Notes under the pieces: model-generated | What the model was told of the DNA's origin: nothing | The model's database searches: none | Seen by the model: only the letters and a program-made list of their open reading frames with translations | Made by a program: the position numbers and the translations under genes | Shown here: in pieces, positions 7,821 to 55,942 of the stretch | Numbering within the stretch: the stretch's first letter is position 1 | How the letters are laid out: every line of letters starts with the position of its first letter | Assembly (NCBI GenBank): GCA_951799425.1 | Contig: OX637402.1 | Coordinates: 9,266,001-9,330,000 of the forward strand | Source of the DNA: Ilex aquifolium | Taxonomy: Eukaryota > Streptophyta > Magnoliopsida > Aquifoliales > Aquifoliaceae | Direction: 5' to 3' | Length of the DNA: 64,000 nt

Positions 7821-8120
7821 CGTTCGAACGCCAGGTGACGTTCGAACGTCATCTGCTTACAGTACTCAGCCTCTGATGAAGTTTCTGATGGAACTTAAAA
7901 AGTACTGGGAGCTCAGTCCGTTCGAACGCCAATAGACCATTCGAACAAGATTAACGTTCGAACGCCAATAGAACGTTCGAACGAAGAGAATCTACAGTAC
8001 TTTGGCCTCTGACAGAACTCAAAAGTACTGAGAGCTCACCACGTTCGAACGCCAAACCACGTTCGAACGATCAGCTTAAAATCCTTCTACACACGTTCGA
8101 ACGTCACCAACGTTCGAACG
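7821..8120 (+). repeat. CGTTCGAACG palindrome cluster upstream of ORF3 (A)
   Basis: Ten 10-bp sites, nine perfect and one degenerate (CATTCGAACA), begin at 7821, 7839, 7919, 7938, 7955, 7974, 8042, 8060, 8094 and 8111. They fall into five pairs with start-to-start distances of 18, 19, 19, 18 and 17 bp. The C copy has the same five pairs with the same distances. The last site ends 13 bp before a TATA box. Confidence 0.9.
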
Positions 8121-8133
8121 TCACACCTCAGGC

Positions 8134-8140
8134 TATAAAA
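8134..8140 (+). promoter_or_regulatory. Putative internal TATA box for ORF3 (A)
   Basis: TATAAAA set in AGGC-TATAAAA-GCCT, about 220 bp before the ORF3 start and just downstream of the palindrome cluster. It is conserved in C at 42644-42650. It suggests that ORF3 has its own promoter rather than being read only from the LTR. Confidence 0.6.
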
Positions 8141-8359
8141 GCCTGGTTCGTCTTCTTCATTTCAAAATCACCCAAAACCCCCAAAAACCCGAAAAACCCT
8201 TGAATACTCTTCATTACCCAGCACCCAAAATGCTTACCATTCTCCATTTTCACCAAAAATCAAACATCCCAAGACCATTCCCATATCAAAAAGACCTCCA
8301 TTTTCACAAAGGAATTCAAGCTTTCAATACCTTCACAAACTCAAAACCCAAAAATCACA

Positions 8360-9463
8360 ATGCCTAGAGTTAAACTACCTGCCAGGCGAAACCTGATCAA
8401 TCAGGAGCCTAATTTTGTAGAAGAGGTGATTGAAGAGAGGGAAGGGAGACCAATGGTGAAAAGATTCGATCGAACACGATTCCCCAGTGGTCTCAAGGCA
8501 GAAAGGTATGAAAACTTCTTCCAAAATCATGCAGTAGTATGTGAAAGAGATATTGTGATTATTGATTTTACGGAATTGGGAATATTGGCGGAGATGGAGA
8601 GGAGGAATTGGGTGTGGTTTTTGTGAAACGGGGGAGATGCCGTTGTTGACTAGGTGCGGGAGTTTTACTCCAACGCCGAGATCATCAACGGCGCAATCCG
8701 AACATACGTGAGGGGAGCCCACATTGATGTGAGTGAAGAATATATTAAGGAAATAAGGCAAGAAGTGCCTCGGGTACAAAACCTGACATACCCTCCAAGG
8801 AAGAATGAACCGTTGAATAGGGTTGGGAGAGAGTTGACAGGGATGACTGATTTTTCATGGGATAGGCGGAGGTTTTTAAAACAGGGGGAGCTCACCGATA
8901 AATACAAGATGCTTAACTTAACTGCGGTGTCTAATCTCGCTCCCATAGGACGAAGGAGTGAGATTTTACCCGACATGGCCTGACTTTTGTATGTCATTGG
9001 CAAAGGACATAGCATCGATCTCCCCTCTCTCATCCTGAATGAAATGAAGAAGGGGTGTGATGTAAAAAGGAGTGCACTCCCTTTTGCTACTTTGGTGACT
9101 GAAATGTGCACGAAAAATGGGATCAAGGTGAGGCCGGAGATGGAAATCCAAAAGCCGATGGGGCCACTGAACAAGGCATCCTTCTGGAGAAGCCAAAGTT
9201 ATAGTGGCGGCCCAGCGGTAAGACAAGAAGAGCCCCCTGCCCACGGAGTGGATGAGGTATAAGAGGAGCTTGATGAGATGGAGGAGAGAGAGATGGAGAG
9301 AGAGAGAGAGAGAGATCACCCACAGGAGGCAGGTCCCAGCAGTCAGAGATCACTGAGAGACATCATGATTGGCATCGAGGCCAACCAAGACAGGATTCTC
9401 CGACAACAGGAGGAGATCCTTGGACTTCTGAGAGGTGGAGCTGGCAAACCTGGAGGAGAGTGA
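8360..9463 (+). pseudogene. ORF3 of element A (plant-transposon-protein-like domain, broken)
   Basis: A frame of 367 codons from ATG at 8360 to TGA at 9461-9463, with four in-frame stops: 8624-8626, 8651-8653, 8981-8983 and 9260-9262. C has sense codons at each. About residues 90-260 contain VREFYSNAE and VRG motifs and a later LPF-LVT-C motif. These recall the 'putative plant transposon protein' domain (PF20167) found in ORFs of plant Ty3/gypsy elements, from memory of the family. The C-terminus has an acidic stretch with a GA-rich tract near 9285-9315 and a short predicted coiled coil (RILRQQEEILGLLRG). Function unknown. Distant relatives occur in B (27777-29019) and R (31021-32090). Confidence 0.75.
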
Positions 9464-11298: not shown

Positions 11299-11898
11299 TG
11301 ATTAGCACTGAAAGTTAGCATGTTACTATGCCATTTTAAGACTAATTGTACTATGATGAAGTTTAAGTGATGTCATTTCAGGCCCTAAACTGAACAAGGA
11401 CTAAAGAACAACAAGTACCACACTTGAATGCAACACCAGCACATTAGAGCCCAAAATTGGAAAAGCTTTGAGTATAGCTAGAACGTTCGAACGCCAACTC
11501 ACGTTCCAACATCCACATTGCACTATAGCATACTCAACTACTAAGAGAAGGCGTGTTGTAGTTAGGAAAGAAGACTGAAGCTCTGAGGCACTTGAGTGTC
11601 ACGTTCGAACGCCAACTCACGTTCGAACGTGCACTTGAGTTGATTGAAGACCAGACTACTACATAGAGTTGGAACTGAACTACACAGAAGACCAACAGAT
11701 CACTCGAGTGAAAGGGTCAGAACACATCTGGCGTTCGAATGCCCTTAGTGCAACAACAGAAGAAACGTTCGAACGACAATCAACGTTTGAACGACCTTAG
11801 TGCAAAAACAGAAACAACGTTCAAACGCCAACTAACGTTCCAACATTCTCCACAGACTGGCAGCAGAGTGGTTGGATTTTCACTTGGACTTGGGCGGC
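11299..11898 (+). repeat. Element A 3' LTR, first part (before element E)
   Basis: Starts TGATTAGCACTG right after the PPT and aligns with the start of both C LTRs. It is cut at 11898 by E; the last five bases, GCGGC, are the E target duplication. The remainder resumes at 18929. Confidence 0.95.
11484..11845 (+). repeat. CGTTCGAACG palindrome cluster in A LTR
   Basis: Nine sites, mostly as pairs 18 bp apart (11484/11502, 11602/11620, 11766/11784, 11818/11836) plus a single site at 11732. Several have decayed, mostly by CpG-type transitions such as CGTTTGAACG and CGTTCAAACG, as expected of methylated DNA. Layout matches the C LTR cluster. Confidence 0.88.
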
Positions 11899-13800
11899 TG
11901 ATGAGCGCATAATATTGCATATTTGAAGGGCTCAGTACATGCATTATAACTCAAATTTTGCATTTAAATACTTAGTGTTAGCCAAAATTGTCAATAATGT
12001 TGATATTTTGATGTTGCATGTTTTTATACCTTAAATCATGTATTTTATAACCTTGCAACTATGATGGATGTGTGGTGAAGGCATAGACACAATACATGAA
12101 GAATTGGAGGCTTAAAAGTGAAGAAATCAATAAGGCATTGGTGCTTGGGAACAAAGGCATCAGCAGCCACATCATTTGGAAGTACTGCCTTGGTTTTCCT
12201 CCATTTTTGCCATGATCTACTCAGAATCAGGAAAAGTTCAAAACATAAAAGTTGTAGATCTGGATGTCTTCTATATTGTGTCCAAATTTCAGCTCAATCG
12301 GATGGTTGGATCAAAATTTATGCCAATTCTACGACAACTGGTCCAGAGCAGACAACTACCGGAAATACCTACTGGTAGTTAGCACTCCAGTAGCAAATGA
12401 CTACCGGTAGTTATCACTCCAGTAGCCAACAACTACCGGTAGTCACTACCGGTAGGTCGTCCATAAGTGCCCAGAACGACTTCTTTCTTGCTCCACTTGC
12501 TTGGGAGTCCCACCTACACTTCTCCCACGCCTAGCCCAACATTTCATTACACATTTACAGGCATCTCTTACACATTTTGAAGACTTTGGAGGCTTGGCAT
12601 TGAATGAAAGAGAGAGGGAAGTGGGCTGCCAGGGGAGTTGCAGGCTAGCCTGCCAATGCTTTCAACTCAGCCCCCTATGATGGGAGGTCTACACACAGCT
12701 AAGGGGGAGCCTCATGCACGAAATTGGAAGTCTCCCACACACCATTATATTCAGCATTACACACATATTGTATTAGGAAGTTGGCTACCTAAGCTTAAGA
12801 GTAGATGTAGAAAGCTCCAAGGTTGAAGATGATGAATAGTAATTTCGTTTTTGCATTTTCTTCATCCATGTCATTGCTGTAAGCTACATTCCTCTTGTAA
12901 TCTTCATTTCTTACATTGTAATCTCCTTTATTTCAAGTATATTGCAAGTTAATTACATGTTCTTCATTTCACCATTTATGCTTTCAAGTTCTTCATTTTT
13001 AGCTTAAAATGGGTATTGAATGTTTTTGTTCATAGCTTTAGATTTCTTGCTTCAAGTTTAGTTTCATGCTTTAAAGCTTCATTTCTATACAATGTCTTTC
13101 ATTTACATTATGCTTGTCTTTCCTTTATGCATTTTTAATATGAGTAGCTAGGATTTAAGTTGGTTAATCCTCTTGGGAATACCATTTTCAACTCTTCTTC
13201 ATTCCTCCCTTTAGAGTCAAATGGTTCGGTTTGACGGGGTTGAGAGTGGATGAGTTGGTGAGCCTTTGATATTCCGTAGGCCTAGTCACAGTTTATGCTT
13301 AGATACTCACCAATCTCGTCCCTAGCTTCCCCCGAATCAATCGTTCATTCATGCTCAATCGGAGGAAGGCTTTGAGTTGATTTGGTATTCCCATTGGAAT
13401 GAACCCTTTGGATTAGCCAACACTTGCTTTCTTGCATTTTCATTTTGAACAAAACTCACCAAAACACAAATACAAGATTTTACACTTTCTTTTCACTTTT
13501 GCAAAATCACTTTCACAAAACTTCCTTTCCTTCCCTGAGGAGACGACCTTGAAATATTTTCCAAGTAAAACACACGACCACAAAAGACTCTTTTCGATTG
13601 GGGAGCATTTTTGTTCACCACACACGCATTCCATTTCATAACATTTTGTTCATTCCATTCATTTCCATCACCATTCCATTGTTGCCTAATCTTTTGCATC
13701 ATTCCGAGTGAGAGTGACACTCACCCATTCCTATAAGCCATACACACTTTTAGGGATGATGTTTAGAGGTTAGGATACAACAACGTTTTCCAATCAATCA
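11899..13800 (+). repeat. Element E 5' LTR
   Basis: 1902 bp, TG...CA. Nearly identical to the 3' LTR. The clearest difference is a 13-bp segment present in LTR2 (near 18280-18295) and missing here between short TCC repeats, plus an extra C near 13333. Confidence 0.95.
12355..12455 (+). repeat. CTACCGGTAG palindrome cluster in E 5' LTR
   Basis: Several CTACCGGTAG sites, perfect or with one CpG transition, separated by CACTCCAGTAGC spacers. The same cluster is in LTR2 at 17467-17567, where a site that reads CTACTGGTAG here is the intact CTACCGGTAG. Confidence 0.85.
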
Positions 13801-13803
13801 TTT

Positions 13804-13821
13804 TGGCGCCGTTGCCGGGGA
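13804..13821 (+). other. Element E primer-binding site (tRNA-Asp type)
   Basis: TGGCGCCGTTGCCGGGGA, three bases after the end of the 5' LTR at 13800. Same primer type as A, C and R. Confidence 0.93.
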
Positions 13822-13945
13822 AGGTTAAGCGTCGAGTTCAAGAGGTGATTTTGGGACGGCATAAGGTAAGTCTTGTGATTTTCATCATGGGCCAAGTTAT
13901 GTCGTCTCATTTGTAAATATTTTGTTTTAATTTGTGTTTTATGTA

Positions 13946-14776
13946 ATGTCTTATAATTATTATGAAAATGTATCAAATGCCCCTTATTATGAAAATGTGT
14001 GTGAGATTTGTGATGACTATGGACTCATCTCTTGTATGTGCCAAATAAATTATCCGGTTCAAGACCTTGAATGCGAAAGTTCAAATTCAGAGTTGGACTA
14101 CCTAAATTTTTACCGCAACCATTATGATTCACCGAGTTATTCGAGTTATGGTTGGGAGAATGAACCGTATAATTTTTCATCCAATCTCACACCACCAAAT
14201 GAATTCTCCCATTATCCAACATATGAGAACTCAACCGAAGTAGAATTGGAAAATGTTTGGTGTGATTTTATGCAATCCCAAATGGAATGCAATGCCCAAA
14301 TGGAATGCATTGCCCAACAACTTAATGCATTGACTAATGCTACAATTGTTATGCATGAAGAACAACACCTTGAGCATAGTCAATGTATTGAGGATGACCC
14401 CCCCAATGAAATGCATATGGATGTTGAATCTCCCACCACTATAGATTGTGAAACATTTGATGAAGTTATTATCTTGCATGAGGCTAATGAGCCCAAGGAC
14501 ATTTTGCCATCTATGAGTGGTGTTGAGATTCACATTTCTCAACTTGGGGAGGGCATTGCAATGGAGTTAAGTTTTGAGACTCTTAAAGAAAAATTGAATA
14601 CTCCACCTTTTGTATTGCATAAACTTGCCTATATCTTGGTTTGGTTGAGATTTTTGACTTCTTTTCCTTTGTATTGTTGGATAGATTGGTTAGCAAGGGC
14701 ATTTATACAACAAAAAAATTTTAAAATCAAAAAAATCCATGGGCGTAGGGTCATATCAGAATTGAAGCCGGATTGA
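13946..14776 (+). CDS. Intact gag-derived ORF of non-autonomous element E
   Basis: 276 residues with no internal stop. I start at the ATG at 13946; the frame is open slightly further upstream but without an ATG. The N-terminal part is Tyr-, Asn- and Cys-rich, with CEIC and CMC Cys pairs where full gag proteins have the zinc knuckle, followed by a Tyr/Trp-rich segment and FMQSQMECNAQ...LNALTNA. That last segment matches the B gag tail (FIQSQTTFNNN...LTKITNA), so this looks like the nucleocapsid and tail of gag without the capsid core. The middle is acidic, and the C-terminus has a hydrophobic stretch (FLTSFPLYCWIDWLA) and a basic end. It may help package E RNA into helper particles; that role is inferred. 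Confidence 0.75.
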   Translation: MSYNYYENVSNAPYYENVCEICDDYGLISCMCQINYPVQDLECESSNSELDYLNFYRNHYDSPSYSSYGWENEPYNFSSNLTPPNEFSHYPTYENSTEVELENVWCDFMQSQMECNAQMECIAQQLNALTNATIVMHEEQHLEHSQCIEDDPPNEMHMDVESPTTIDCETFDEVIILHEANEPKDILPSMSGVEIHISQLGEGIAMELSFETLKEKLNTPPFVLHKLAYILVWLRFLTSFPLYCWIDWLARAFIQQKNFKIKKIHGRRVISELKPD

Positions 14777-14940
14777 CATGAGCCCTTGTTGTTTTGTTTC
14801 CATGTACATAGTAGTTATCTCTTTTATTGTTATATTTTTATTTTTCATGTCATTGTAGTATAATGGTGAGTATCATTGTAGTTTAGATTTTAACATGAAG
14901 CATGTTTCAGCGGGAGTAGTTTGGTAGACAAAGCAGAACA

Positions 14941-15024
14941 GTACCGGTACTAAAAACCTACTGGAATCTGAGTACCGGTACTCGGTACCGGTACCAAATG
15001 GTACCGGTACCCAGTACCGGTACT
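14941..15024 (+). repeat. GTACCGGTAC palindrome cluster inside E
   Basis: Five GTACCGGTAC sites in 84 bp, with a CTACTGGAATC spacer after the first. E has no ORF3 downstream, so the cluster is kept without the gene it precedes in B. Confidence 0.88.
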
Positions 15025-17009
15025 GTTTGCCTGACAGACCCAATCTCTGCAATGCTACTCCACCTACTTTGAGGGCATCACCAGCATTCCTCCCCCATGT
15101 TCTAGTCTAAGTTGAGGGGTGTAAATGAGCTTTGTGTGTTTCATTTTCTCTTTTATGTTTATATATAAAAAAAAAAAAAAGGGGGTATCTCATTTCCCAT
15201 TTTACCTTCATTGTTTTCATTGCATGATTCCTTGTGCATTGAGGACAATGCATAGTTCAAGTTGGGGGGTGAGGTGCACCATTTACATGTTCCACCACTT
15301 TTTGTATAGAATAAGTTGGAAATGTGAAAATTTTAAAATTTTTTGACCATTTTTGTGAAAAGTATTCAATATTGAACTATATTCCTTTATCCTAATTGTT
15401 ATGGGATTTGTGAATTGCTTGATCTTCATTTTTAACTTTGAATACATGAGCACATTATAGAAGTTTATCCTATGTTTGAGTATCACATATGTGTTTTCTT
15501 TCAAACTCAACCATTGTGCACCTTGAATGTGTAATTTGGACAATTTACGGATTGAGTTCACATTTGAGTGCTTGACATGAATAGTGGAGATGAGTAAGTA
15601 CCCGTGTGAGCTTTAGTGCCAATTCTTGTTTGGAGGGAACTTACATTTACTCAAGGAACAATTTTTCAAATTCCACATTTGTTCAATAATCTCATTATGC
15701 TTGTTTTGGTTAGGTGTATTTGGGTAGTTGATTGACTTTGTCTTGATTGTACAATGCTCCCATATGCTTATCTAGAGATGATCTTAGGCCATTTTTGAAT
15801 GCTTTGAGCCTAAGCCTTTTTCTTGTGAAATTTATCCCTAGTGCCATGATTGAGCCTTAATTGAATTCATTTCTATGCCACACATTGAACCAAGCCAAAG
15901 AAAATAAGAAATACCTACCTTACCTTGGTTGTTCCTAAAACAAAAATGAGTGATTGCAAAAGAAGGAAGTATGGTGTGGAAACTCAAGCAAAAAAAGGGT
16001 GAATGATGTTGGAACGCATAGAGTTCAATGAAAGAAAAAAAAAATGATAATCCAAGAAAATGAAGAAAAGGGGTGAGAAGAAGAAAAGAAAGAGAAAAAG
16101 AAAAGGGAAAAATGTAAAGGAAAAGAAAGAAAAGAAACAAAGGATGTGGTGATGGTGTGAAAATCAAAATCCCATAAAATGGAAGTGTTTTTCTAAGATT
16201 AATGTCTCTCACTCGGAACAACCCTCTTTGTTATCCTATATCCTTCGTTTCCCTTACCACAACATCACCCCAAGGCCCCATTATAACCCATGAAAGTCCT
16301 AAAAGATCTAGAGAAGCATGGGGGATGCATACTTTTAAAGAAAAAGAGAAGTTAATTTTACTATCTAATGCCCTAGCATTCCTTTCATGAGATTATGCCA
16401 AGGTTGTTTCATTTGTATACATGTGCTTCATTTTTGGATTATATGTGAGCATTTTGGTTTGTGAATAAGATTCTATCTCACATATACACATGGAGTGCAT
16501 GCTAGGATAATCATTGAGTTATTCATTTTTGAGAGAAACCCTTGGTGAGTGTTTGCATCAAAGCTTAATTTGGATAGCCACGTGAATGTGAATTCCGTTG
16601 TGTAAATGCTTAAATTACATGTTCAGTTCACACACACACGAGTTTTGAAAGGAAATGTATAGGTGAATACTCTAGAATAGCATTTAAAGCTATAATGTGT
16701 TGCATGTGTTTTTAGTTAGGATGTTTTGAACATAGTTTTTTTTATTGAAATCCCATCGCTAGTTAAGATAGGGGAATATACTTTAAATATTGGATATTAG
16801 CAAGAAGTTTGTAGGTACCTTCACTGGAAACTTTCACGAGACAAAACTCGTCCACTAGGGATCACCTAGGGGTTTAAAGGCTTGTTGCATGTGCTAAATG
16901 CAATTGCGGAATTAGTATAGGTTTATTTTTGTTTGCTTGCTTTTACATTTTGTTTGCTTGCTTTTACATTTTGTTTGCTAGGGACTAGCAAAGCTTAAGT
17001 TGGGGGGTG
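15025..17009 (+). other. Element E 3' non-coding region
   Basis: No supported gene. It has a TATATATAAAA/poly-A stretch near 15160-15180, hairpin TGCATTG-AGGA-CAATGCA (15235-15252) with an internal PPT (15260-15270), GATCTTAGGCCATTTTTGAA (15780-15799), a purine-rich tract (about 16020-16145), hairpin ACGAG/CTCGT (16836-16851), two 23-bp repeats of GTTTGCTTGCTTTTACATTTT type (about 16930-16975), hairpin TTTGCTAG-GGA-CTAGCAAA (16974-16992) and the terminal PPT GTTGGGGGGTG. Confidence 0.7.
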
Positions 17010-18923
17010 TGATGAGCGCATAATATTGCATATTTGAAGGGCTCATTACATGCATTATAACTCAACTTTTGCATTTAAATACTTAGTGTTAGCCAAAATT
17101 GTCAATAATGTTGATATTTTGATGTTGCATGTTTTTATACCTTAAATCATGTATTTTATAACCTTGCAACTATGATGGATGTGTGGTGAAGGCATAGACA
17201 CAATACATGAAGAATTGGAGGCTTAAAAGTGAAGAAATCAATAAGGCATTGGTGCTTGGGAACAAAGGCATCAGCAGCCACATCATTTGGAAGCACTGCC
17301 TTGGTTTTCCTCCATTTTGGCCATGATATACTCAGAATCAGGAAACGTTCAAAACATGAAAGTTCTAGATCTGGATGTCTTCTATATTGTGTCCAAATTT
17401 CAGCTCAATCAGATGGTTGGATCAAAAGTTATACCAATTCTACGACAACTGGTCCAGAGCAGACAACTACCGGAAAGACCTACCGGTAGTTAGCACTCCA
17501 GTAGCAAATGACTACCGGTAGTTATCACTCCAGTAGCCAACAACTACCGGTAGTCACTACCGGTAGGTCGTCCATAAGTGCCCAGAACGACTTCTTTCTT
17601 GCTCCACTTGCTTGGGGGTCCCACCTACACTTCTCCCATGCCTAGCCCAACATTTCCTTACACATTTACAGGCATCTCTTACACATTTTGAAGACTTTGG
17701 AAGCTTGGCATTGAATGAAAGAGAGAGGGAAGTGGGCTGCCAGGGGAGTTGCAGGCTAGCCTGCCAATGCTTTCAACTCAGCCCCCTATGATGTGAGGTC
17801 TGCACACAGCTAAGGGGGAGCCTCATGCACGAAATTGGAAGTCTCCCACACACCATTATATTCAGCATTACACACACATTGTATTAGGGAGTTGACTACC
17901 TAAGCTTAGGAGTAGATGTAGAAAGCTCCAAGGTTGAAGATGATGAATAGTAATTTCGTTTTTGCATTTTCTTCATCCATGTCATTGTTGTAAGCTACAT
18001 TCCTCTTGTAATCTTCATTTCTTACATTGTAATCTCCTTTATTTCAAGTATATTGCAAGTTAATTACATGTTCTTCATTTCACCATTTATGCTTTCAAGT
18101 TCTTCATTTTTAGCTTAAAATGGGTATTGAATGTTTTTGTTCATAGCTTTAGATTTCTTGCTTCAAGTTTAGTTTCATGCTTTAAAGCTTCATTTCTATA
18201 CAATGTCTTTCATTTACATTATGCTTGTCTTTCCTTTATGCATTTTTAATATGAGTAGCTAGGATTTAAGTTGGTTAATCCAAGGGAAAATTCCTCTTGG
18301 GAATACCATTTTCAACTCTTCTTCATTCCTCCCTTTAGAGTCAAATGGTTCGGTTTGACGGGGTTGAGAGTGGATGAGTTGGTGAGCCTTTGATATTCCG
18401 TAGGCCAAGTCACGGTTTATGCTTAGATACTCACCAATCTCGTCCCTAGCTTCCCCGAATCAATCGTTCATTCATACTCAATCGGAGGAAGGCTTTGAGT
18501 TGATTTGGTATTCCCATTGGAATGAACCCTTTGGATTAGCCAACACTTGCTTTCTTGCATTTTCATTTTGAACAAAACTCACCAAAACACAAATACAAGA
18601 TTTTACACTTTCTTTTCACTTTTGCAAAATCACTTTCACAAAACTCTCTTTCCTTCCCTGAGGAGACGACCTTGGAATATTTTCCAAGTAAAACACACGA
18701 TCACAAAAGACTCCTTTCGATTGGGGAGCATTTTTGTTCACCACACATGCATTCCATTTCATAACATTTTGTTCATTCCATTCATTTCCATCACCATTCC
18801 ATTGTTGCCTAATCTTTTGCATCATTCCGAGTGAGAGTGACACTCACCCATTCCTATAAGCCATACACACATTTAGGGATGATGTTTAGAGGTTAGGATA
18901 CAACAACGTTTTCCAATCAATCA
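17010..18923 (+). repeat. Element E 3' LTR
   Basis: 1914 bp, starts TGATGAGCGC after the PPT and ends AATCAATCA; followed by GCGGC (18924-18928), the target duplication. The palindrome cluster is at 17467-17567. Confidence 0.95.
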
Positions 18924-42630: not shown

Positions 42631-42643
42631 ATACAACTCAGGC

Positions 42644-42650
42644 TATAAAA
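42644..42650 (+). promoter_or_regulatory. Putative internal TATA box for ORF3 (C)
   Basis: TATAAAA inside AGGC-TATAAAA-GCCT, 13 bp after the last palindrome of the cluster. About 220 bp to the ORF3 ATG, a plausible leader length. Identical to 8134-8140 in A. Confidence 0.62.
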
Positions 42651-42869
42651 GCCTGGTTCGTCGTTTTCAGCCAAAATCCCCAAATTCTTTCAAAACCCTA
42701 GAACTCATTTTCACTCCACAGACCTCAACTCGCCCTCATTCCCCAAGAATACCCAAATTCGACCCCCCCTAACTCCTCTCCACATCAAAATCATCAAACC
42801 CAGACCAAGAACCCCAAGCTTCCAGCACTTTTCAACACCCTCTCAAACCAAAACCCACGTTCGAACGCC

Positions 42870-43976
42870 ATGCCAAGGGTAAAGCTTCCTGCCAGGAGGA
42901 ACCCAAACACCCAAGAGCCAAATTTCGTCGAAGAAGTGGTAGAGGTAAGAGAAGGAATGCCACCACTCACAAGGAGATATGACAAAACTCGATTTCCCAC
43001 AGCTCTAAAAGCTGACAGGTATGAAAATTTCTACCAAAACAAAGCCATTGTTTGTGAAAGAGATGTGATTTTGGCTGATTTTGCGGAGTTGGGGATCTTT
43101 GCGGAGATGGAAAGGAGGGGGTGGTTGTTGTATTTGAGGAACGGCGGTGAGGCCGTAGTCGACTTGGTGCGGGAGTTTTACTCCAACGCCGAGATCATCG
43201 AGGGGGAAATTCGAACGTATGTAAGGGGAGTCCATGTGGACGTTGATAAAGATTACATTTGGGGAGTAAGGCAAGAAGTGCCTCGGGTTCCAAATCCCGC
43301 ATATCCCCCAAGGAAGAATGTGGCGATGAATGAGGTGGGGAGAGAACTAATGGGAGTACCAAATTTTTCTTGGAGTGGAAAGAAATTTTTTAGACAAGGG
43401 GAGCTAAGTGACAAATACAAAATGTTAAACTTGATTGCGGTGTCAAACTTTGCCCCAATTGGAAGGAAAAATGAAATTCTACCCGACATGGCCCGATTGT
43501 TGTATGCTATTGGAAAAGGAAATAGCATTGATCTCCCCTCCATAGTATTGACTGAGTTGAAGAAAGGGTGTGACGTGAAGCGGAATTCACTTCCCTTCGG
43601 CACCCTAGTGACTGAGATATGCAAGAACCATGGGGTGAGGGTGAAGCCCGAGATGGAAATCCAAAAGCCAATGGGGCCACTGAACAAGGCTTCCTTCCGG
43701 AGAAGCCAAAGTCATAGTGGCGGCCCAGCGGCAAGGCAAGAAGAGCCCCCGGCCCACGGAGTGGATGAGGTACAAGAGGAGCTTGATGAGATGGAGAGAG
43801 AGATGGAGAGAAAGGGAGATCAGCCAGCAGAGGCGGGACCTAGCACCAGCACCAGCACCTGACGCTCCTTATTGGACGTCATGCTTAGCATTGAAGCTAA
43901 GCAGGATGAGATCCTTAGGCTTTTGAGGGGTGGACATGGTGGACATGGAGGAGATGGTGCACAAGGAGGAGAGTGA
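42870..43976 (+). pseudogene. ORF3 of element C (one late stop)
   Basis: The best ORF3 copy: 330 residues from ATG 42870 to TGA 43860-43862, and the frame continues to TGA 43974-43976 to match the A length (368 codons). It starts MPRVKLPARRN. Residues about 50-130 are a mixed alpha/beta region with CERDV and LGIFAEMERRGW; VREFYSNAE and YVRGVHVDVD follow, then a Pro-rich YPPRKN, LPDMARLLYAIGKGNSIDLP, and LPFGTLVTEIC. The C-terminus is Glu-rich with a possible short coiled coil. Related to PF20167-type proteins by motif memory. It has no catalytic signature I can see, so a structural or DNA/RNA-binding role is as likely as any. Confidence 0.78.
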
Positions 43977-45798
43977 GAGAGAGAATTTCTGTTCTTGTTC
44001 TTGTTTTTATGTTTGTTTAAAGTGCTTCTTTTTATGAATTTCTTCTTTGATAATTGTAAGTTTTTGTGCGATTGTGAATGAATCGAACCATTGATATTAA
44101 AAGATGATATTTTGAAATGAATGGTTCCATTTATCACTTTTTTTTGTTGTTTAATGCATTTGTAGATTTAGCATCAAAATTAAAAGGTGATGGAACAAAT
44201 GTGGATGTAAGAATGCTTGCTAGAGTAAATTTGCACATGATCGGTTTGACACCTCCATTTATCAACCGAGACTTAAAACCACATTTCTTAAACAAAATTG
44301 GTATTCTCTCTATACTTAAATTGTTATATGTACATCGATATTTGTTATTTTAAAGGTACAGGAGGATCTGACTCGAAAATGGAATTGGTATATAACCAAT
44401 ACCCCCTGGAAAACCCGACATACACAGTGGAGATAACAAAGAACACCAGGGTGAGTTTCGAACCTAACGATGCTTTTGAGAGACAATCAATGTTTACTCA
44501 AGTAAATTCTTTTCACCCTCAATTTTTTGAATAATCTCATTAACCTTGCTTTGATTGACGCACTTAAAAGTGATCTATTGACATATCTCACAAGGAACCA
44601 TCGCATACGACACATACATGTGCACATGCTTGAGAAATGATCTTAGGCCATCTTTGATATAATATTGAGCCTTAGACCTTTCTTTGACAAATTATCCTTC
44701 GTTAGCCATATTTGAGCCATCAATGTATAAGTTTTTCTTTGATAAACCTATATGATTACCAATCCACGGGAAAACAAACTTGACATACCTTGGCTATCTA
44801 ATTTTCTTACATCCTCTTTGTAAGATGATACAGAAAAAGGAAAAGAAAAAGAAGCATTCGAGATTATCATCCAAGAAGAGTTGGTTGGAACAATTGAAAC
44901 AAAACAAGAAGCAAAAAGGCAAGAACTTGCCAAGAAAGTGAAAAATGAGAAAAATGAAAGAAAGAAATGTCATCTCTCGGCAGAATATCAAGAAGTTAGA
45001 AAAAGGTGTGCTACAATACGTAAACAAAAGATAGCTTTTGAAAATCCCTGATGTCGTTTCGTTAGCCACTGACCTCTGGCCACGCTACAACCTATGAAAA
45101 GCCCTATTTGATCTCAAGTCTGTTACATGCATGTGTTGTTAATCAAAATTGGGATATGGTAGATAGCATTCCTTTTAATTGCATTAATATTCTTTCATGA
45201 GGTTATGCCAAACATAAGTAGTTGCTTCTTAAAAATTTCACTCCTTTCCTAAATTGTGCATGTGATTTTTCGATTGGCCATCTTCTGATCACATGATCTG
45301 TGAGAAACAAGTCACTATAATCAGAGTGAACTTTTGCTGAGGGTATACTACGTGAGTTTTGTGAAATCGAAACTATCCATGGAAGGTGATAAAAGGGAGT
45401 ATTTGTTACATAACAATTCATGTTGCTTGAATGATCATTCCTACTGCATTGAGAATTTCAAATACCAATGTAACAAATGATAATTTTTGCATAGAATGAA
45501 TACCTGTGAAATAAGGACGTGTGAGACATAAGTAAAAATTGAGAATCTGGTGTCCCAACGACCTTGATGATAATTTACTTTAGTCAGCACTCTCTTATGC
45601 ACATCTGTTCGACTGAAGTTTGTGGGTAGCTTCCCTGGAAACCCTCACGAGACAACACTCGTCCGCTAGGGTAAACCTAGTGGTTCAACGGTTTCTTGCA
45701 TAAGCTAAATGCAACCGGATGACCTACGAAAATGGCATTAGGATTAGATTTTTCTTTTTCGTATTACTAGAGACTAGCAATATTTAGGTTGGGGAGTG
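43977..45798 (+). other. Element C 3' non-coding region with hairpins and PPT
   Basis: No supported gene. Collinear with 9464-11298 in A. Shared block GATCTTAGGCCATCTTTGAT (44639-44658), purine-rich tract (about 44825-45000), hairpins ACGAG/CTCGT (45647-45662), CTAGG/CCTAG and TTGCAT/ATGCAA, pre-PPT hairpin around CTAG-AGA-CTAG (45762-45783), then PPT GGTTGGGGAGTG. Confidence 0.7.
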
Positions 45799-47755
45799 TG
45801 ATTAGTACTTAAAATTGACATGTTATTATGACATTTTAAGACTAATTGTACTTTAATGGAGTTTAAGTGACGTCATTTCAGGCCCTAAATTGAACAAGGA
45901 CCCAAGAACAACAAGTACCACACTTGGATGCAGCACCAACACATTAGGGCCAAAATTGGAAAAGCTTGGAGCACAGCCAGAACGTTCGAACGCCAAATCA
46001 CGTTCGAACGTCCACATTGCACTGTAGCAGACTCAACTGCTGAAGAGAAGGCGTGTTGCAATTAGGAAAGAAGACTGGAGCTCTGAAGCATTTGAGTGTC
46101 ACGTTCGAACGCCAACTCACGTTCGAACGTACACTTGAGTTGATGGAAGACCAGACCACTGCAAAGAGTTGGAACTGAACCTCATAGAAGACCACCAGAC
46201 TACTCGAGTGATAGGGTCAAAGCAAATCTGGCGTTCGAACGCCCTCAGTGCAAAAATAGAAGAAACGTTCGAACGGCAGTAAACGTTCGAACGCCCTTAG
46301 TGCAAAAACAGAAAGAACGTTCGAACGCCAACTCACGTTTGAATGTTATCCACAGACTGGCAGCAGAGTTGTTGACTGTTCACTTGGACTTGGGCGGTAA
46401 ACACTATTCCTTCACCCCCCCCCCCCCCCCTTGTCTCCTCCTCTTGCCTATAAATACTCCCCTTGTTGCAGAGTTATGGGAGCCAAGTAGGAAGTAGGAA
46501 AGTTGATGGAGGCTTAGACTCCCACTCTCATTGTAGATTTACCTCATTTCCCTTGTATGAAGTTGTTATTTTAGAGATTAGTTTGGCTTTAGTCCAACAT
46601 CTCTTGCTTGTTATAACAATAGTTTTATGCTTATGCTTATGTTTATGCTTTCATTTTTCATGCATAGAAGAGAGAGAGCTCACCTTTTGGTTGAGGAAGC
46701 AACCCTCCAATTCTTGGTTGAGGAAGCCACCCTTCAAATGTGACTAGCTTTCTTCTACTTTTATTGTTCATACATTTCACTTCCATTGCTTGCGCTTCTT
46801 TCTTTCTTAGAAGAGTGAAACTCTTCCACTTTTCTAGAGCTTTACCAAAGCCGTGAAGGGTGGAACGTGATTCACCCATTCTTTGTTAAAGATTGGCTAC
46901 GCATTTGTTGTTACTTTATCTTATATGTTCTCTACTTGGAGGGATGAGCATCACTCACTTTTCTAGCTTTACCCAAGCCATGAAGAGTGAGTAGTTTCTC
47001 ATTCACTCTTTAGTAAGAGGAGAAGGGCATGTATAAGTTATCCGGGAATCATATTTGTGCAATGTTTCTATGCTTAACGCTTATTTCTTCTTGTTATTGG
47101 ATGATTGATTGCATCTAGCAAAGCTAGGGTACTTTGTATAATTGTGGGTTCTTTCTATGACACGGATGACTCTTGCATAGAAAGACTCATCAGTTCAAGG
47201 CAAGTACCCCGGCTAGATCCTCATGACTACCCCTCAATCTTCCCCCTTATTGTACTTTATTTAAAGAATGGAATATTAATATCATGATTGGATGTCTTGT
47301 AGAAACACTTGCTTGTTTGTAGACGGGTTAAGTCTCGGCACAGGTAATTCTTGTAAACTTCTAGAAAGACATCGGAATCATGTTCTTAATTCTCACAATC
47401 CATCTTTATCTTCCGATTAACTTGCTGTTGACATGGGAGTTAATTGAGTTATCAAGCACAATTATGACAAACCGGATAACTAGCTACATGTCCAGATCCT
47501 TGCACTAAAGAGTGACTTTTTTTTATTAGCACCTATTTTGTTAAGAAAGTCTTCCTAGAAAGAATCTTATATTCTGTCCAGAAAAACTCATATCTCACAG
47601 CAAATCTCAAAGGTTACAATCAATAGGTCTCTACCACTGCTCACCTCAGAAATATCAACAAAAGTTCCCTGTGGATTCGACTCCTGACTCAAACCGGATT
47701 ATTACTACAGCTTGACCGCCTGCACTTGGGTGTACACATTTCGGATCAAGCATCA
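45799..47755 (+). repeat. Element C 3' LTR
   Basis: 1957 bp, TGATTAG...CATCA, followed by the duplication GAGAC (47756-47760). Palindrome cluster 45983-46344, TATAAATA at 46449-46456. Confidence 0.96.
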
Positions 47756-47760
47756 GAGAC

Positions 47761-49508: not shown

Positions 49509-50030
49509 TGTAACACCCCGAATTTTCTTTTATATATTTATAGAGATATATATATAGCAAATAATATTTGTAAAGATGTAGATATATGTAGTGACATAAG
49601 AATAAACCGTAGGAATAAATGCTATGGAGACAATTTGATTGGGAAGTTACGTGTCGAAGATGTTTAAACTTGGAAAGGGTGATTAGACAAGTTTCTAAAA
49701 GTTTGTAGGTCAAAATAATGATTTCATTGAATCCGGAAGGTCGAAAAACATTGGGAGTGGTAATATGGATGTATTGGAAGTTAGGAAGTGTCTCGGAGTT
49801 AAAATACACTTTAGCGAGAATTTGGGTAAAAATGGGTATTGAATACTACTTAGTGTTTTGGCCATAACGTTTTATCTTTAAGTCCAATTGATCTAAAATT
49901 TTTGCAGTAGATAGTAGACATCCAGGGCTACAAAAGTATGTATCATGAAAATTTTCCAATTCGACCTCTAAATGGGTCAAAACTGCATTGGAAGTTGAAA
50001 CAAAAATCTGGCAGTCAAACCGTACCGGTA

Positions 50031-50088
50031 CACGTACCGGTACGCCGAACTCCAGTAGCTACACCGTACCGGTACGCGTACCGGTACG
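50031..50088 (+). repeat. CGTACCGGTACG palindrome cluster in solo LTR
   Basis: Two pairs of sites with 12-bp spacing, split by GCCGAACTCCAGTAGC. That spacer is nearly the reverse complement of the B spacer GCCACTGGAGTTCGCC. The left flank CAAACCG also matches B. TATAAATT follows 51 bp downstream. Confidence 0.9.
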
Positions 50089-50690
50089 CCCGATAAAGCC
50101 AGCCCGATCCGACTGCGGGTCTTTCTCCATTTCTTCCACTATAAATTCATTTTGTCACCTCCTTAGCCTTCATTACACCACTCCAAACCCTAGAAAACAT
50201 AAGAGAGGAAGAGAGAAAGAGAGAAACACAAGATCAAGAGAAAACAAGAGATTGAAGGGTTGATTCAAGATCAAAGCCCTAATTTTTCCAAGAACATTAA
50301 GGTAGGGGTTTTCTCTCACTCACTTACATTGATGGCTAGGGTATTTATATATGTATGTTTTGGCTATCAATGGTATATATATGCTATAGAATCATCATCT
50401 CTTAGGCTTCTTGCAAAGATTACATTGTTAGGGTTTAATACCCATTAAATCTTTTTGCTAGCTTTAAAACCCTAGTTTTTGGGAGAGTGATGTATTTCTT
50501 CTTAAATGCTTCTTTATTATGAACTTCGAAAACCGTAGTTGTTTGTGTTGGGTAGAAAAATGATGTTATTGTGATCTCATATATTTTCCTTGTTGGTTGG
50601 GGAATTGTTACATAATATATCTTGGGGATTTTGGAGAGATGCTTGTAAAATGATATAAATATTGGAATGGTATGCTTGGTTGGGTTGTTT

Positions 50691-50950
50691 GTGATGCCTT
50701 GAGGGTGAGAGGTTCCTTATAAGGATGCTCATGCCAAGAGAGGAGAGTATGTGATTTCCCTCAAGAGGTTCCTTATAAGGATGCTTGAGTTTGTGATGCC
50801 TTGAGGGTGAGAGGTTCCTTATAAGGATGCTCATGCCAAGAGAGGAGAGTATGTGATTTCCCTCAAGAGGTTCCTTATAAGGATGCTTGAGTTTGTGATG
50901 CCTTGAGGGTGAGAGGTTCCTTATAAGGATGCTCATGCCAAAAGAGGACA
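50691..50950 (+). repeat. 102-bp tandem repeat in solo LTR
   Basis: Two full units (50691-50792 and 50793-50894) and a partial third. Each unit contains two copies of GAGGTTCCTTATAAGGATGCT; TTCCTTATAAGGA is itself nearly palindromic. No gene inferred. Confidence 0.92.
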
Positions 50951-51570
50951 ATATTATATAATGTGTGGGAAATGGTTTATATTTTGAAAATGGATGTTTG
51001 TTAAAATGGGTTATTATTGTTCATTTCTAGTCCGATTGCTATCTAAACTTGAGATCCTTGTTGAAATGTCACTGCCTTATTTCAAATTATGTATCTATGT
51101 TATGTTAAAAATGAGACCGGCCATTTTAAATACGTTTCTAAACCTTGTTTGGGTTTGAGAGAATTTTTCTACAGAGCTTCGTGCTCACCCCCTACCGCTA
51201 ACATTTTTCAGATTACCCTCTCGAGGAAGAGCTGGGAGTCGAGGAGCCCGCACACTGGGAGACTCCGATAGACGGGAGCGTGGATCCCGAGGTGGATGCC
51301 TAGAGCGACACTTCCTTTTGTTCTAGACTAGGATATTCATTTTGAACCTTGTAAAGTCTAGTTTTATTTTGTTATTTCCGCTGCGCTACATTAGTTAATT
51401 TTTGAGATGTAAATGCCATGGTTGGGCATATTCTTTTGGATAATGATGTAAATATTTTATGGATGATGAATGAAGTTTAATTTATTTATGGATGATATTA
51501 GTGCTCTCATGATGTAAATGGTTTTAGTATGTAATGCCGTCCAGGGTGTGTTTTGGGGTGTTACAGAAAC

Positions 51571-53500: not shown

Positions 53501-54465
53501 CTCCTCTAAATTCGACTTATTTTCCTGCTGTGGTGGAGCTTGATTCTGAAAACCTGGTGGGTATGATTATCTTGAAGCAGAGGTTTGGGCTTGATTATTA
53601 TTCCATAAAAAGCCCGGATGATTCCTCCAACCAGGGTTATAATTGTTGGAATTATTGTTATACTGCTGCCTGTTGTGGTTACCAATGTATTGTACCGACT
53701 CTGGATTAATTGCACATTGATCACTCGGATGGTTCCCTGCACACAATTCACAGACAACTGCCACACTCTGAATAGGCTGCACCCCTAGAGCATCAATGCC
53801 CCTCCTGCAGCTGCATCGATACTAGTTCGGGTAGCACTAAACAACCCGTTGTAGAACATTTGAACTTGCAACCAATTAGGAATACCATGGTGAGGGCATT
53901 TTCGGAGTAAGTCTTTGAATCGCTCCCAAGCTTCATATAGAGTCTCAGAATCATGCTGTGCGAATGATGTGATGTCGTTCCTCATCCTTGCAGTTTTAGC
54001 TAGTGGAAAGAATTTAGCTAAATCTGTCCACATGGTAATAGAACCCGACGGCAATGAATGCAACCAACTCTTCGCCTTATCACGAAGTGAGAAAGGGAAA
54101 AGTCAGAGTCTAATCGCATCTTCAGAAACCCCATTGTATCTGAATGTGTCACATATCTCCAGAAAACTCACCAAATGATCGTTTGGGTCATCGTTAGGCA
54201 AACCCCCAAACTGCACTGAATTCTGAATCATTTGAATTGTACCCGGCTTGATCTCGAAATTGTTTGCTTGAATTGCGGGCCTTTGAATGCTCGATTGTAT
54301 TTCCGTCACAAGCAGCATAGCATAATCCCTTAATGATTTCTGTTCTTCTTCAGCCATAGTTTCTTGATTATTTACTTCTTCACACTGCTTTTGCAAGTTT
54401 CGGAGCCTTCTTTCGATTTTTTCTTCATACGGTAGTAGCTCCTGACCTGTAGATCGTGTTTGCAT
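53501..54465 (-). pseudogene. gag: Element R gag (broken, internal deletion)
   Basis: ATG at 54463-54465. The N-terminus has a charged helical stretch (EEKIERRLRNLQKQCEE). The capsid core is broken by TGA 54103-54105; WERFKDLLRKCPHHGIP follows. A deletion near 53785 fuses the end of the core to the zinc-knuckle region, and the frame shifts there. The knuckle is CELCAGNHPSDQC, a C-X2-C-X4-H-X4-C pattern with one residue fewer after His, followed by YNPGWRNHPGF. Confidence 0.88.
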
Positions 54466-54571
54466 ACAAAATTCAAGAGTGCTTGCGAAAACGATTAAAA
54501 CAGAAAATTAAATAAGTTTAAACTAAGATCAAATTGATTGAAATTAATATTGAAATAATTACTAGAATAAT

Positions 54572-54589
54572 TCCCCGGCAACGGCGCCA
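54572..54589 (-). other. Element R primer-binding site (tRNA-Asp type)
   Basis: Minus strand TGGCGCCGTTGCCGGGGA, perfect consensus, after the spacer AGTTTT following the LTR end at 54596. Confidence 0.94.
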
Positions 54590-54595
54590 AAAACT

Positions 54596-55942
54596 TGTTG
54601 TCCGAATTTGATATTGACAATTTACGTGCAAGTATATACGATCAACAAATAATAAAGTGATAAGTAGAGTATCATTCCCACGGAGAATTATTACTAATAA
54701 CTTCCAATTACTAACTTTATATCAATTCCATTTTATTTAAACAATTGGAATTGAACTAGGGAATTACTAATTTAAAACTAAATCTAAAATTAATAATCAA
54801 TGATTGAATTTAACGGATTAAAGAATTTAAGATTACAACTTCCCCTAATGCTTCATATAAATCTTTCCACTCTCTTTCCAGTTAATTGATCAAAATAAGT
54901 TGTTAACTGAAACTTCAAAATTATTTATCAAACCTCTTCCGATAGTTAGATAAGTATATCTCTCCCAATTAAATTGTTATACTCCTATGCAAAATAAGTT
55001 GGAATAGATTCATTAAGTTCAAACTCTCATAAAAGTTACACACGGCATATAGATATATTCCTATCCTATACACAAACCCAGCAATTCAATCATAAGAAGA
55101 ATTAACCAGACGCATGTCATCATATTCAGATCTAAACATAGAATTCATCTCCCAATTTCATCTAGGTTATCGAATTGATTGATGGCCAAAAAATCATATA
55201 TTAAGCACAAAATATGACAAACAACTCATGTGTGATCAATAGAACTAGAATCGAGAGTAGATCAAATTAACTAGACATTAGGTTCCGTCGCAATCTTAAT
55301 AAGAATTTAGTTCATAATGTAATTGAAAAACATCATCCTCAAATTAAACAACATCTCAAAAAATCAAGAACTAAAAGTAAGAGAAAAGGAATGAAAACTT
55401 AGTTGCAATCTCCAATCTCTCTCTACCCTTCAATCCCGATTTTCTTCGCGTCGCCTCCTTCGATTCTTGCCTTCAATTTTCTATCAATCCTTGGTCTTCT
55501 TCTTATGTTTTCAGCCTCCAAAATCAGTCTATTTATATCCCCACTCAAACTCTAGCATATATGAGGCATTAGAGTCCAATTTCAGGTCAAAAATAAGTCA
55601 GAATTCGCGTCCAGAGCCAACACAAGCGCAGCTGCGCTGGAAAGGCACTAGAAAGGCGCTGCATGGGCAGTATGTGGGCGCCCCTGCGCTTGAAAGGCAC
55701 TAGAAAAGCGCTGGTCTTTTTTTAAGCCTTCAGCTCCCTTGTTGTTTAGCCTTAAAAAACCCAACAATTAGGCTCCAAATTGACCTTGTTTCCTTCCAAA
55801 TGATATTGTTTGCTTCCAAATGATGATTCCTATCGAATAACATCAAAACACACAAAAAAAATAAAAAGGATCATAAAATAATTGAAAACTTGCAATTTCA
55901 TCAAGCCGAAAATACTCAATTCGTAGGAATAAAACTGACTCA
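54596..55942 (-). repeat. Element R 5' LTR
   Basis: 1347 bp; on the plus strand TGTTGTCCG...ACTGACTCA. The minus-strand TATA box TATAAATA is at 55530-55537. The right end joins D sequence at 55943. The matching 3' LTR is outside the window, so the boundary at 55942 rests on the CA end and on where similarity to B and E begins. Confidence 0.82.
55625..55713 (-). repeat. AGCGCT palindrome cluster in R LTR
   Basis: AAGCGCAGCTGCGCTGG, then GGCGCTGCATGGGCAGTA and AAGCGCTGG, with GAAAGGCACTAGAAA between. About 90 bp upstream of the minus-strand TATAAATA (55530-55537). Confidence 0.78.

Follow-up and report, generated by a model that had tools for sequence, protein, structure and literature searches.

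Why should a group of nested retrotransposons carry arrays of short palindromes at two places in the same element, and what might read them? The question is raised by a 64-kb stretch of the Ilex aquifolium genome (the window), which holds the nested Athila-like Ty3/gypsy elements A1, B, E, R and A2 (the last called C in the initial annotation) and one solo LTR. Assignment to the Athila lineage follows the domain order PR-RT-RNaseH-INT with a third ORF after pol (Pfam and tblastn positions), the Transposase_32 domain (PF20167, Pfam) of that ORF3, and the occurrence at 13804, 35392 and 54573 of TGGCGCCGTTGCCGGGG, which we take to be an Athila-type primer binding site. An ORF3 with PF20167 is known from sunflower Athila, according to the accessible part of that study (PMC11728184). 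B sits within the A1 LTR, between its U3 array and its TATA box.

Table 1. Positions of the elements, arrays and ORF3 regions in the window.
Feature	Position	Strand	Remarks
A1 pre-ORF3 array	7821..8120	+	9 exact CGTTCGAACG and 1 with 2 mismatches, mostly pairs 17-19 bp apart
A1 internal TATA box CTATAAAAG	8134..8140	+	14 nt past the A1 internal array
A1 ORF3 region, PF20167, broken	8282..9352	+	
A1 3' LTR U3 array	11484..11845	+	4 exact copies, 9 with up to 2 mismatches
B, non-autonomous element	11899..18923	+	TSD GCGGC
B 5' LTR array	12401..12455	+	word CTACCGGTAG
B internal array	14941..15023	+	5 copies of GTACCGGTAC
B 3' LTR array	17480..17566	+	word CTACCGGTAG, steps 32, 32, 13
E pre-ORF3 array	27292..27401	+	GTACCGGTAC and near copies, pairs 12 bp apart, 44-bp period
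E ORF3, PF20167	27675..28478	+	open to 28478; similarity to A2 ORF3 runs past the stop to 28547
E 3' LTR array	29583..29680	+	
R ORF3, PF20167	31119..32099	-	one in-frame stop
R pre-ORF3 array, AGCGC half-sites	32593..32790	-	
A2 element	33427..47755	+	TSD GAGAC; inserted into the R integrase
A2 5' LTR U3 array	33611..33973	+	TATA box at 34079
A2 pre-ORF3 array	42331..42630	+	TATA box at 42644; extra copy at 42858 before ATG
A2 ORF3, PF20167	42870..43859	+	open, 330 aa counted from the first ATG
A2 3' LTR U3 array	45983..46345	+	
Solo LTR	49509..51565	+	TSD GAAAC
R 5' LTR array, AGCGC half-sites	55622..55713	-	TATA box at 55537

The array words are far too frequent to be chance occurrences. 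For the A word, CGTTCGAACG, the window has 37 copies, where 100 shuffles give an expectation of 0.00, and the whole genome of 800 Mb has 32,359, against 278 for the reversed control; for the E-type word, GTACCGGTAC, the counts are 17 (0.01 expected from shuffles) and 51,910 (reversed control, 907). All 17 copies of GTACCGGTAC in the window belong to arrays, as does every CGTTCGAACG except the single copy just before the A2 ORF3 ATG. U3 arrays were found in all eight LTRs whose U3 lies inside the window (A1 3', A2 both, B both, E 3', solo, R 5'), and pre-ORF3 arrays in all four elements with a PF20167 ORF3 (A1, A2, E and R). Placement is thus constant across families with different motifs, as had been proposed. 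Each family also has its own spacing: 17-19 bp in 19 of the 50 listed gaps for A, together with 34-bp steps, and 12-13 bp in 13 of the 32 listed gaps for E, with steps of 12-13 and 31-32 bp in E, B and the solo LTR. Between A1 and A2, 47/57 motif CpGs are kept compared with 83/179 other CpGs (Fisher p = 1.4e-6); between the 5' and 3' LTRs of A2, motif decay is slower in direction, although not significantly so (24/26 versus 18/24, p 0.13). An origin of such arrays by neutral tandem duplication, within non-coding DNA that evolves fast, is very improbable: the E array is indeed a 44-bp tandem unit and the leaders of R-like elements also hold repeats (by eye), but this origin is at odds with the retention of motif CpGs, with the constant placement across families and with the solo LTR, in which only the array (50022-50087) gave a match to the E LTR.

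According to the initial annotation each family has its own palindrome centred on CpG. The words are family-specific, but 'CpG-centred' is not a general description because some R relatives use GCGCCTAGGCGC; in the relatives with this word or with AGCGCCCCTGCGCT, each half-site still holds a CpG. The motif AGCGCT proposed for R occurs only four times in the window, once in an LTR, and an array of AGCGC half-sites in several dimer arrangements describes this element better (of 28 AGCGC/GCGCT sites in the window, the two R arrays contain 12). CAGCGC alone is weakly enriched (12 versus 5.5).

The annotation had also placed one and the same cluster in the LTR and before ORF3 of A, B, C and R, which is correct for A1, A2 and R. 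In B, all seven LTR copies read CTACCGGTAG and all five internal copies GTACCGGTAC; with different words in LTR and interior, the two kinds of array in B are not the same. Furthermore, tblastn with the window ORF3s detected no ORF3 in B, where the internal array is flanked by a gag-derived ORF on one side and non-coding sequence on the other. E had been left out of the set but does carry an array before ORF3; over 119 bp this array and the one in the LTR are 88% identical, and the homology stops within ∼ 20 bp of the array edges. Such sharp edges would be expected if host transcription factors alone, a different one for each family, read the arrays and the two copies matched through template switching or conversion. 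The B internal array, which together with ∼ 72 bp downstream resembles the E LTR (70.5% over 129 columns), points the same way. In A, however, the LTR and internal arrays agree in words and spacings with little likeness in the sequence between them, which speaks against this reading. We regard the host-factor reading as a serious alternative that is somewhat less probable than not.

A TATAWA box lies within 120 nt downstream of 5/8 independent window arrays (A-LTR, A-internal, solo, R-LTR and R-internal, but not B-LTR, E-LTR or E-internal; background 0.061, P = 4e-5, with the 120-nt limit set after inspecting the data). This agrees with the earlier description of TATA boxes in A, C, R and the solo LTR and of weaker ones in B and E. 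A TATA box follows the array in 4/4 A-like loci chosen by ORF3, and a TATAWA within 120 nt follows 9/30 R-like pre-ORF3 arrays. Known plant factor sites considered as candidates for the array words were the SPL site GTAC, rejected since the B LTR word lacks it, the HSE, rejected on account of its spacing, and the telo-box, of which similar words are present downstream of some arrays. Position, TATA boxes, CpG retention and precedents in Sirevirus and Athila6A elements, the latter with a reported internal promoter of the ENV ORF (PMC4977677, in the part available), support the arrays as candidate promoter elements.

All seven arrays submitted to RNA folding beat their shuffles (z -4.5 to -8.6), and in maize the LTR palindromes of Sireviruses show an excess of smRNA for which hairpin silencing has been argued (PMC10760457 and PMC5311732, both seen in excerpt). 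Nevertheless, it is improbable that the palindromes act as RNA hairpins feeding small-RNA silencing, whether as a by-product or as a liability: folding of this kind is general to arrays of identical palindromes, and hairpins would seem to leave unexplained the fixed 12-13/18/32-34-bp steps, the pre-ORF3 placement and the association with ORF3 type described below. Probably, instead, these Athila-like elements have twin promoter-proximal arrays that are inherited with ORF3 and read by one factor. The U3 array would precede the LTR promoter, from which genomic RNA is transcribed, and the pre-ORF3 array would precede a second promoter that serves an ORF3 mRNA. Short sites with two-fold symmetry and set spacings would fit a DNA-binding factor that acts as a dimer or oligomer, either the ORF3 product or a host protein; if a single factor reads both arrays of one element, ORF3 output would be tied to genomic RNA output, and selection may keep the arrays matched. 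This model has to accommodate the 3/8 window arrays and 21/30 R-like pre-ORF3 arrays without TATAWA within 120 nt, as well as the internal array that B retains without an ORF3.

In Athila-like elements the third ORF is usually called 'envelope-like'. PF20167 was found in 26/28 ORF3-like proteins, and Pfam gave neither an envelope family nor a DNA-binding family at a convincing score for any of the 28. The structure model was poor (mean pLDDT 57.8), a search of solved structures with ORF3 returned one match (E 1.1), and the E ORF3 contains a hydrophobic segment close to its N-terminus. A possible link with the plant mobile domain (MAIN/MAIL1, 'DOWN' motif; PMC7156037, consulted in part) was dropped as no such Pfam match was obtained. 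ORF3 is far less alike between families (A-E 24%, A-R 26%, no E-R match at E 1e-4) than integrase (A-E 67%, A-R 54-66%, tblastn). This divergence would suit a VANC-like product, that is, a sequence-specific activator or anti-silencer of its own family's palindromes that co-evolves with the arrays, and so would the predicted NLS and nuclear location of the sunflower Athila PF20167 protein (PMC11728184, as far as the accessible text goes). The lack of a convincing DNA-binding family and the low pLDDT count against it.

A1 and A2 differ sharply across the leader and ORF3, with flanks on both sides that are ∼ 90% identical. Their ORF3s are 71% identical (29% different; the comparison takes in some codons ahead of the ATG), with a dN/dS of 0.13, and yet have the motif in common. 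Diverged or exchanged ORF3 bodies next to an unchanged motif are awkward for the twin-array model and also for recognition by ORF3.

To follow arrays and ORF3 across the genome, loci were chosen by ORF3. Arrays of the locus's own kind were present in 30/31 R-like loci (the 30 best-scoring minus one plus two, hence the top of the score list and not a random sample; half-sites tested against 200 single-base shuffles), 4/4 A-like loci (from 121 scored) and 3/3 E-like loci (from 143 scored, one decayed and judged by eye). L006 and L007 were chosen by motif and enter none of these counts; L013 stands outside trees and counts, because the best score of its larger stretch (L043) came from a second ORF3, of A type. 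A viral contig set contained no relatives by ORF3, integrase or motif-pair pattern. A genome contig set gave one plant-like contig, inside a bacterial MAG (L001); it showed no array but stops short of the region of interest.

In the R-like group, the sole group tested, array type follows ORF3 and not the integrase end. Among 22 typed loci, ORF3 distance is 0.075 within and 0.122 between array types (p 0.0005), whereas the adjacent integrase end gives 0.067 for both (p 0.46). ORF3 clade and array type are associated (p = 5.6e-6; L008 is the exception) in a tree of 32 rows that is confined to R-like loci and includes eight without a clear array type. The contrast between loci of the same and of other type is concentrated in the pre-ORF3 array, the leader and ORF3, and for 3/4 reference loci it extends to the U3 array. 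With U3 types assigned partly by eye and then counted, ORF3 distance is again smaller within than between types (0.079 versus 0.114, p 0.0027, n 17), and U3 type does not follow R/U5 (p 0.42, n 16), the integrase end (p 0.52, n 15) or the distal spacer (p 0.40, n 17); the leader segment (n = 5) was excluded from use. One locus labelled R1 in U3 (L049) has by strict count one R1 and two R3-like matches. In Mantel tests each of the six other segments, integrase among them (r 0.60, p 0.0002), correlated significantly with ORF3 distance; these tests are therefore unselective, and ORF3 is set apart from other segments by the label-based tests alone. These two features, labels partly set by eye and unselective Mantel tests, weigh on the twin-array model. 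Since the adjacent integrase end has no association with array type, the co-change in the R-like group exceeds what shared ancestry alone would give; between families, motif and ORF3 also change together, on a small sample. Matching of the U3 and pre-ORF3 arrays is not obligatory, because five loci (L040, L046, L048, L054 and L055) have R2 sites, with R3-like ones, before ORF3 and R3-like sites only in U3, a mismatch that counts against the twin-array model.

Under the twin-array model, array and ORF3 type may form a module that is swapped by recombination among elements with like integrase ends. If host factors alone were responsible, an association with ORF3 but not integrase would need recombination to fall mostly between integrase and array. 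The same result, for pre-ORF3 and U3 types alike, would favour ORF3 as the reader, as do two E-like loci (L063 and L064) with ORF3s 68% and 66% identical to that of E and differing motif variants. Against this stand the sometimes unlike U3 and pre-ORF3 arrays and array copying within an element, which could produce part of the match. We put forward only tentatively, as rather unlikely, that the PF20167 protein reads its own family's array in the LTR and at its own promoter, specificity being encoded in dimer arrangement and spacing, and that array and ORF3 are shuffled as an exchangeable module among elements with the same polymerase genes; this would sharpen the twin-array model and does not exclude it. 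Of the earlier proposal that ORF3 recognizes its own motif, the predicted co-change was borne out, a DNA-binding family was not detected in ORF3 with a convincing score, and VANC stays an analogy.

That analogy is with VANDAL DNA transposons (Hosaka et al., 2017; PMC5735166), for which the accessible text describes short motif arrays in non-coding regions that differ between related families and proposes that motif and element-encoded protein evolve together. Joint change of this kind is seen in the R-like set, with the exceptions in U3 and L008. VANC binding and methylation loss were shown in that system, whereas the Ilex likeness is known from sequence; the VANC21 motif, YAGTATTAY, is not palindromic, unlike the Ilex words. 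If ORF3 does read the array, it would represent a second, independent self-recognizing anti-silencing or activation system in plants besides VANDAL/VANC, placed in one of the largest plant transposon classes, the LTR retrotransposons. The promoter array of its own and the inheritance of this array with ORF3, not with the integrase end, would point to a nuclear regulatory role of ORF3.

The closest likeness in layout is to Sireviruses (Bousios et al., 2010; PMC2829016, here as far as the portion available extends). These have family-specific palindromic high-copy words in the upper LTR, ahead of the TATA box, and a second time 5' of the third ORF, and CpG islands at the motifs, where Ilex arrays have CpG peaks. 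In contrast to the Ilex elements, which are Ty3/gypsy by gene order, Sireviruses are Ty1/copia, and their third ORF is ENV rather than PF20167. Their core CGG-CCG signature is lacking from the A and R words, and the E word shows CCGG in its place. The co-segregation of array with ORF seen in the Ilex R-like group is not described in that portion of the study. Sireviruses without ENV keep their LTR arrays, which argues against ORF3 as the reader, and PLACE matches were mainly stress-related factor sites, which favours host factors. Even with a host reader, the recurrence of this layout in Sireviruses (Ty1/copia) and in Athila-like elements (Ty3/gypsy) suggests that the two-promoter design is a general one.

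Palindrome arrays in Athila elements were not described among the literature matches listed, from a coverage that takes in few subscription journals. Two further systems are likened by description only, and for neither does the accessible text mention a palindrome array. The ENV of Athila6A, an Arabidopsis family (Genome Biology, 2016; PMC4977677), is a third Athila ORF with an internal promoter, like the layout proposed here. Grande gene23 (PMC7264820) differs in being antisense, but it too is an extra 3' ORF of a Ty3/gypsy element with its own promoter, and its protein is nuclear.

The elements in the window have the domain order gag, protease, RT, RNaseH, integrase of Ty3/gypsy and are nested LTR retrotransposons of the Athila type. 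The primer site TGGCGCCGTTGCCGGGG, which we take to be that of Athila, occurs at 13804, 35392 and 54573. The third ORF (ORF3) of A1, A2, E and R carries Pfam PF20167 (Transposase_32); for a sunflower Athila ORF with PF20167, one study gives a predicted NLS and a predicted nuclear location (PMC11728184). In the A1 3′ LTR, the insertion of B (11898 / 18924) separates the U3 array of palindromic words from the TATA box. That LTR is joined to the internal part of E at 20275–20279; E is without a 5′ LTR, probably through deletion.

Features of the window and their positions
Feature	Position	Target duplication	Remark
Window	C12:9266001-9330000		genome of 800 Mb, 103 contigs
A1	window start to ~20275		
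B	11899-18923	GCGGC	inserted in A1 3′ LTR
E	after A1, to ~31005		
R			minus strand; interrupted by A2 and solo LTR
A2	33427-47755	GAGAC	inside R
Solo LTR	49509-51565	GAAAC	inside R
Diverged A1/A2 ORF3 unit (leader, body, 3′ end)	8155-9448 and 42665-43975		flanks ~90% identical

The window holds 37 copies of the A word, CGTTCGAACG, with none expected, all of them in A elements (36 within arrays and one just before the ATG of A2 ORF3), and 17 copies of the E word, GTACCGGTAC, against 0.01 expected. Across the 800-Mb genome the two were found at 32,359 and 51,910 places, compared with 278 and 907 for the respective reversed words. The E-type word is present in the E, B-internal and solo LTR arrays, and the B LTRs use CTACCGGTAG. 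R is looser, with AGCGCT four times in the window and 12 of the window's 28 AGCGC/GCGCT half-sites in its two arrays. When the 200-bp windows of the scan are ranked by CpG content, nine of the top ten fall on arrays of A, E and the solo LTR. The initial annotation had B carrying the same array in its LTR and before ORF3; B has no ORF3, and its LTR and internal arrays differ. E, left out of the families with twin arrays, does have an array upstream of ORF3 (pre-ORF3).

Sites in A mostly form pairs at 17–19 bp, and steps of 34 bp occur as well; this spacing is the same in LTR and internal arrays, between which the inter-site sequence is mostly different. Among the first genome places listed, 19 of 50 gaps between A words within clusters measured 17–19 bp, six 34 bp and six 52 bp. 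E, B and the solo LTR use steps of 12–13 and 31–32 bp, which make up 13/32 and 9/32, respectively, of the E word gaps listed. A second word, CTCCAGTAG, sits in the longer spacer; its five copies in the window all belong to B and solo LTR arrays, and its complement CTACTGGAG occurs twice in the window, once in an array. The match between the solo LTR and the E LTR is confined to the array (79% over 91 columns). Relatives of R arrange their AGCGC half-sites in three ways, CAGCGCTG (R1), GCGCCTAGGCGC (R2) and AGCGCCCCTGCGCT (R3). The description of the palindromes as CpG-centred therefore needs restricting, since neither R2 nor R3 has a CpG at its centre.

Small samples of relatives were chosen by ORF3, four A-like loci among 121 scored matches and three E-like loci among 143. 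Exact copies of CGTTCGAACG number 8, 7, 7 and 5 in the A-like loci, which have one AGCGC/GCGCT site in total. TACCGGTA words are present in all three E-like loci; L064, at 66% ORF3 identity, has one exact CCTACCGGTAGG plus decayed copies, a variant that is also the one of B's LTR.

Further loci were picked genome-wide by PF20167, blind to motifs, with 150 of 6,661 candidates scored. The best 30 were cut out, and 20 places, two of them new, were taken as 7.5-kb pieces, giving 31 R-like loci (L008–L037 minus L013, with L056 and L057). At least five AGCGC half-sites lie in the 350 bp upstream of ORF3 in 30 of the 31 (shuffle p ≤ 0.005); the exception, L019, has no array there and a single half-site. 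In the 32-row ORF3 tree, R1 arrays occupy all ten typed rows of two R1-side clades and R2 arrays 13 of 14 typed rows of the other clade, the exception being L008, which has near matches only (Fisher p = 5.6e-6 for clade against array type, 8 of 32 rows being untypable). ORF3 distance is 0.075 within and 0.122 between types (p 0.0005), and the nearest neighbour is of the same type in 19 of 22 cases. The integrase end behaves differently: its DNA distance is 0.067 both within and between types (p 0.46), with same-type nearest neighbours in 11 of 22, and yet in the loci compared the array lies closer to the integrase end than to the ORF3 domain. On the integrase-end tree the labels need to change 14 times, compared with 12.8 on average after shuffling; since this tree is poorly resolved, the distances are the better test. 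Pairs of the same and of different type are about equally similar at the integrase end, over most of the post-ORF3 spacer and in R/U5, and differ over the array, leader and ORF3, and also over the U3 array for three of four reference loci. The suggestion that motif and ORF3 change together is thus borne out in the R-like loci (n = 22), where pre-ORF3 array type tracks ORF3 and not the integrase end. In L041 (the place of L011) the C-terminal part of ORF3 (~2251–2750) is at least as similar to the other array type as to its own, and the N-terminal part and the arrays are R2. If it is a recombinant, as it may be, this single locus would hint at a link between array type and the N-terminal half.

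The U3 arrays of 17 of 19 R-like 7.5-kb loci and of the window's R fall into three types; in the other two loci no recognisable LTR was found. Not all labels are firm: counted strictly, L049 and L044 are of mixed type. Placed on the ORF3 tree, the U3 types require three changes, the minimum possible being two, against a shuffled mean of 8.1 (0/200 shuffles as low), and ORF3s lie closer together within a U3 type (distance 0.079) than between types (0.114; p 0.0027, n = 17). Grouping by U3 type gave no separation for R/U5 (p 0.42, n = 16), for the distal spacer (p 0.40, n = 17) or for the integrase end (p 0.52, n = 15). A small effect was present in the proximal spacer (0.066 vs 0.078, p 0.0007), and in Mantel tests all segments reached significance. 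Five loci (L040, L046, L048, L054 and L055) have R2 plus R3-like sites before ORF3 and R3-like sites only in U3, and speak against a strict rule of U3/pre-ORF3 matching. Copying of arrays within an element, seen in E, could yield some of the array match without selection.

Comparison of A1 and A2 shows CpG retained at 47 of 57 positions inside motif copies vs 83 of 179 elsewhere, summed over five aligned stretches (Fisher p = 1.4e-6); the 5′ and 3′ LTRs of A2 point in the same direction without significance (24/26 vs 18/24, p 0.13). Their ORF3 has a dN/dS of 0.13 over 350 codons and a dS of 1.36, vs 0.20–0.41 in gag, protease and integrase pieces. Identity drops from ~0.9 to 0.54 just past the TATA box, the boundary lying ~20 bp after it, stays at 0.54–0.80 across most of ORF3 (a single window towards its end reaches 0.93) and is 0.94 again past ORF3. 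Because the sharp divergence is limited to the ORF3 unit, we suggest that this unit of A1 or A2 has a different history and was probably exchanged. Judged from these alignments, an ORF3 body can apparently be exchanged behind a kept promoter.

TATAWA follows within 120 nt downstream of five of eight independent window arrays (background 0.061), in all four A-like loci and in 9 of 30 R-like pre-ORF3 arrays, all nine from R1-side clades. None was found after either E array, nor by eye in L062–L064, the E-like loci; E and these loci share, by eye, a block close to TTAGGG[CT]TTTTAATCGA ~20 bp downstream of the array. For Arabidopsis Athila6A, an independent study refers to a promoter of the ENV ORF and to an internal promoter region, with start sites said to be defined there (PMC4977677). 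In the most likely mechanism, a dimeric factor bound to the U3 array would drive transcription of genomic RNA, and the same factor on the pre-ORF3 array would give ORF3 mRNA. Repeated Sirevirus motifs have the same layout, clustered upstream of the LTR TATA box and 5′ of the third ORF (PMC2829016). Such arrays in Athila-like elements, with unrelated words, appear to be novel, as does, on the sequence comparisons made here, the joint travel of array and ORF3 among elements sharing an integrase end. The ORF3 product itself is a candidate reader of the array, a tentative and rather doubtful one on this evidence; if it reads the array, binding specificity by family is predicted.

In L011, L016, L022 and L026, all R-like, the ORF3 leader shows, by eye, repeats around CTCCAAACTCAGATTTTC in the stretch that separates the array from ORF3. 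When translation of the E ORF3 is taken from the first ATG, a hydrophobic stretch, GLFFALSAFLMMGALLLCM, falls close to the N-terminus (window 27675–27780). After pol there is a second polypurine-like tract, AGGTTGGGGGGTG (window 6920–6970); an extra PPT is mentioned for Athila4 and Calypso in PMC2829016. A post-pol stretch that the non-autonomous B has kept matches its counterparts in E and F at ~79–80% identity (15324–16687, 25521–26887, 57076–55949). Lastly, L001 is a plant-like integrase contig (DAIEQH010000041.1) binned in a Candidatus Nomurabacteria MAG, a placement that is probably contamination.
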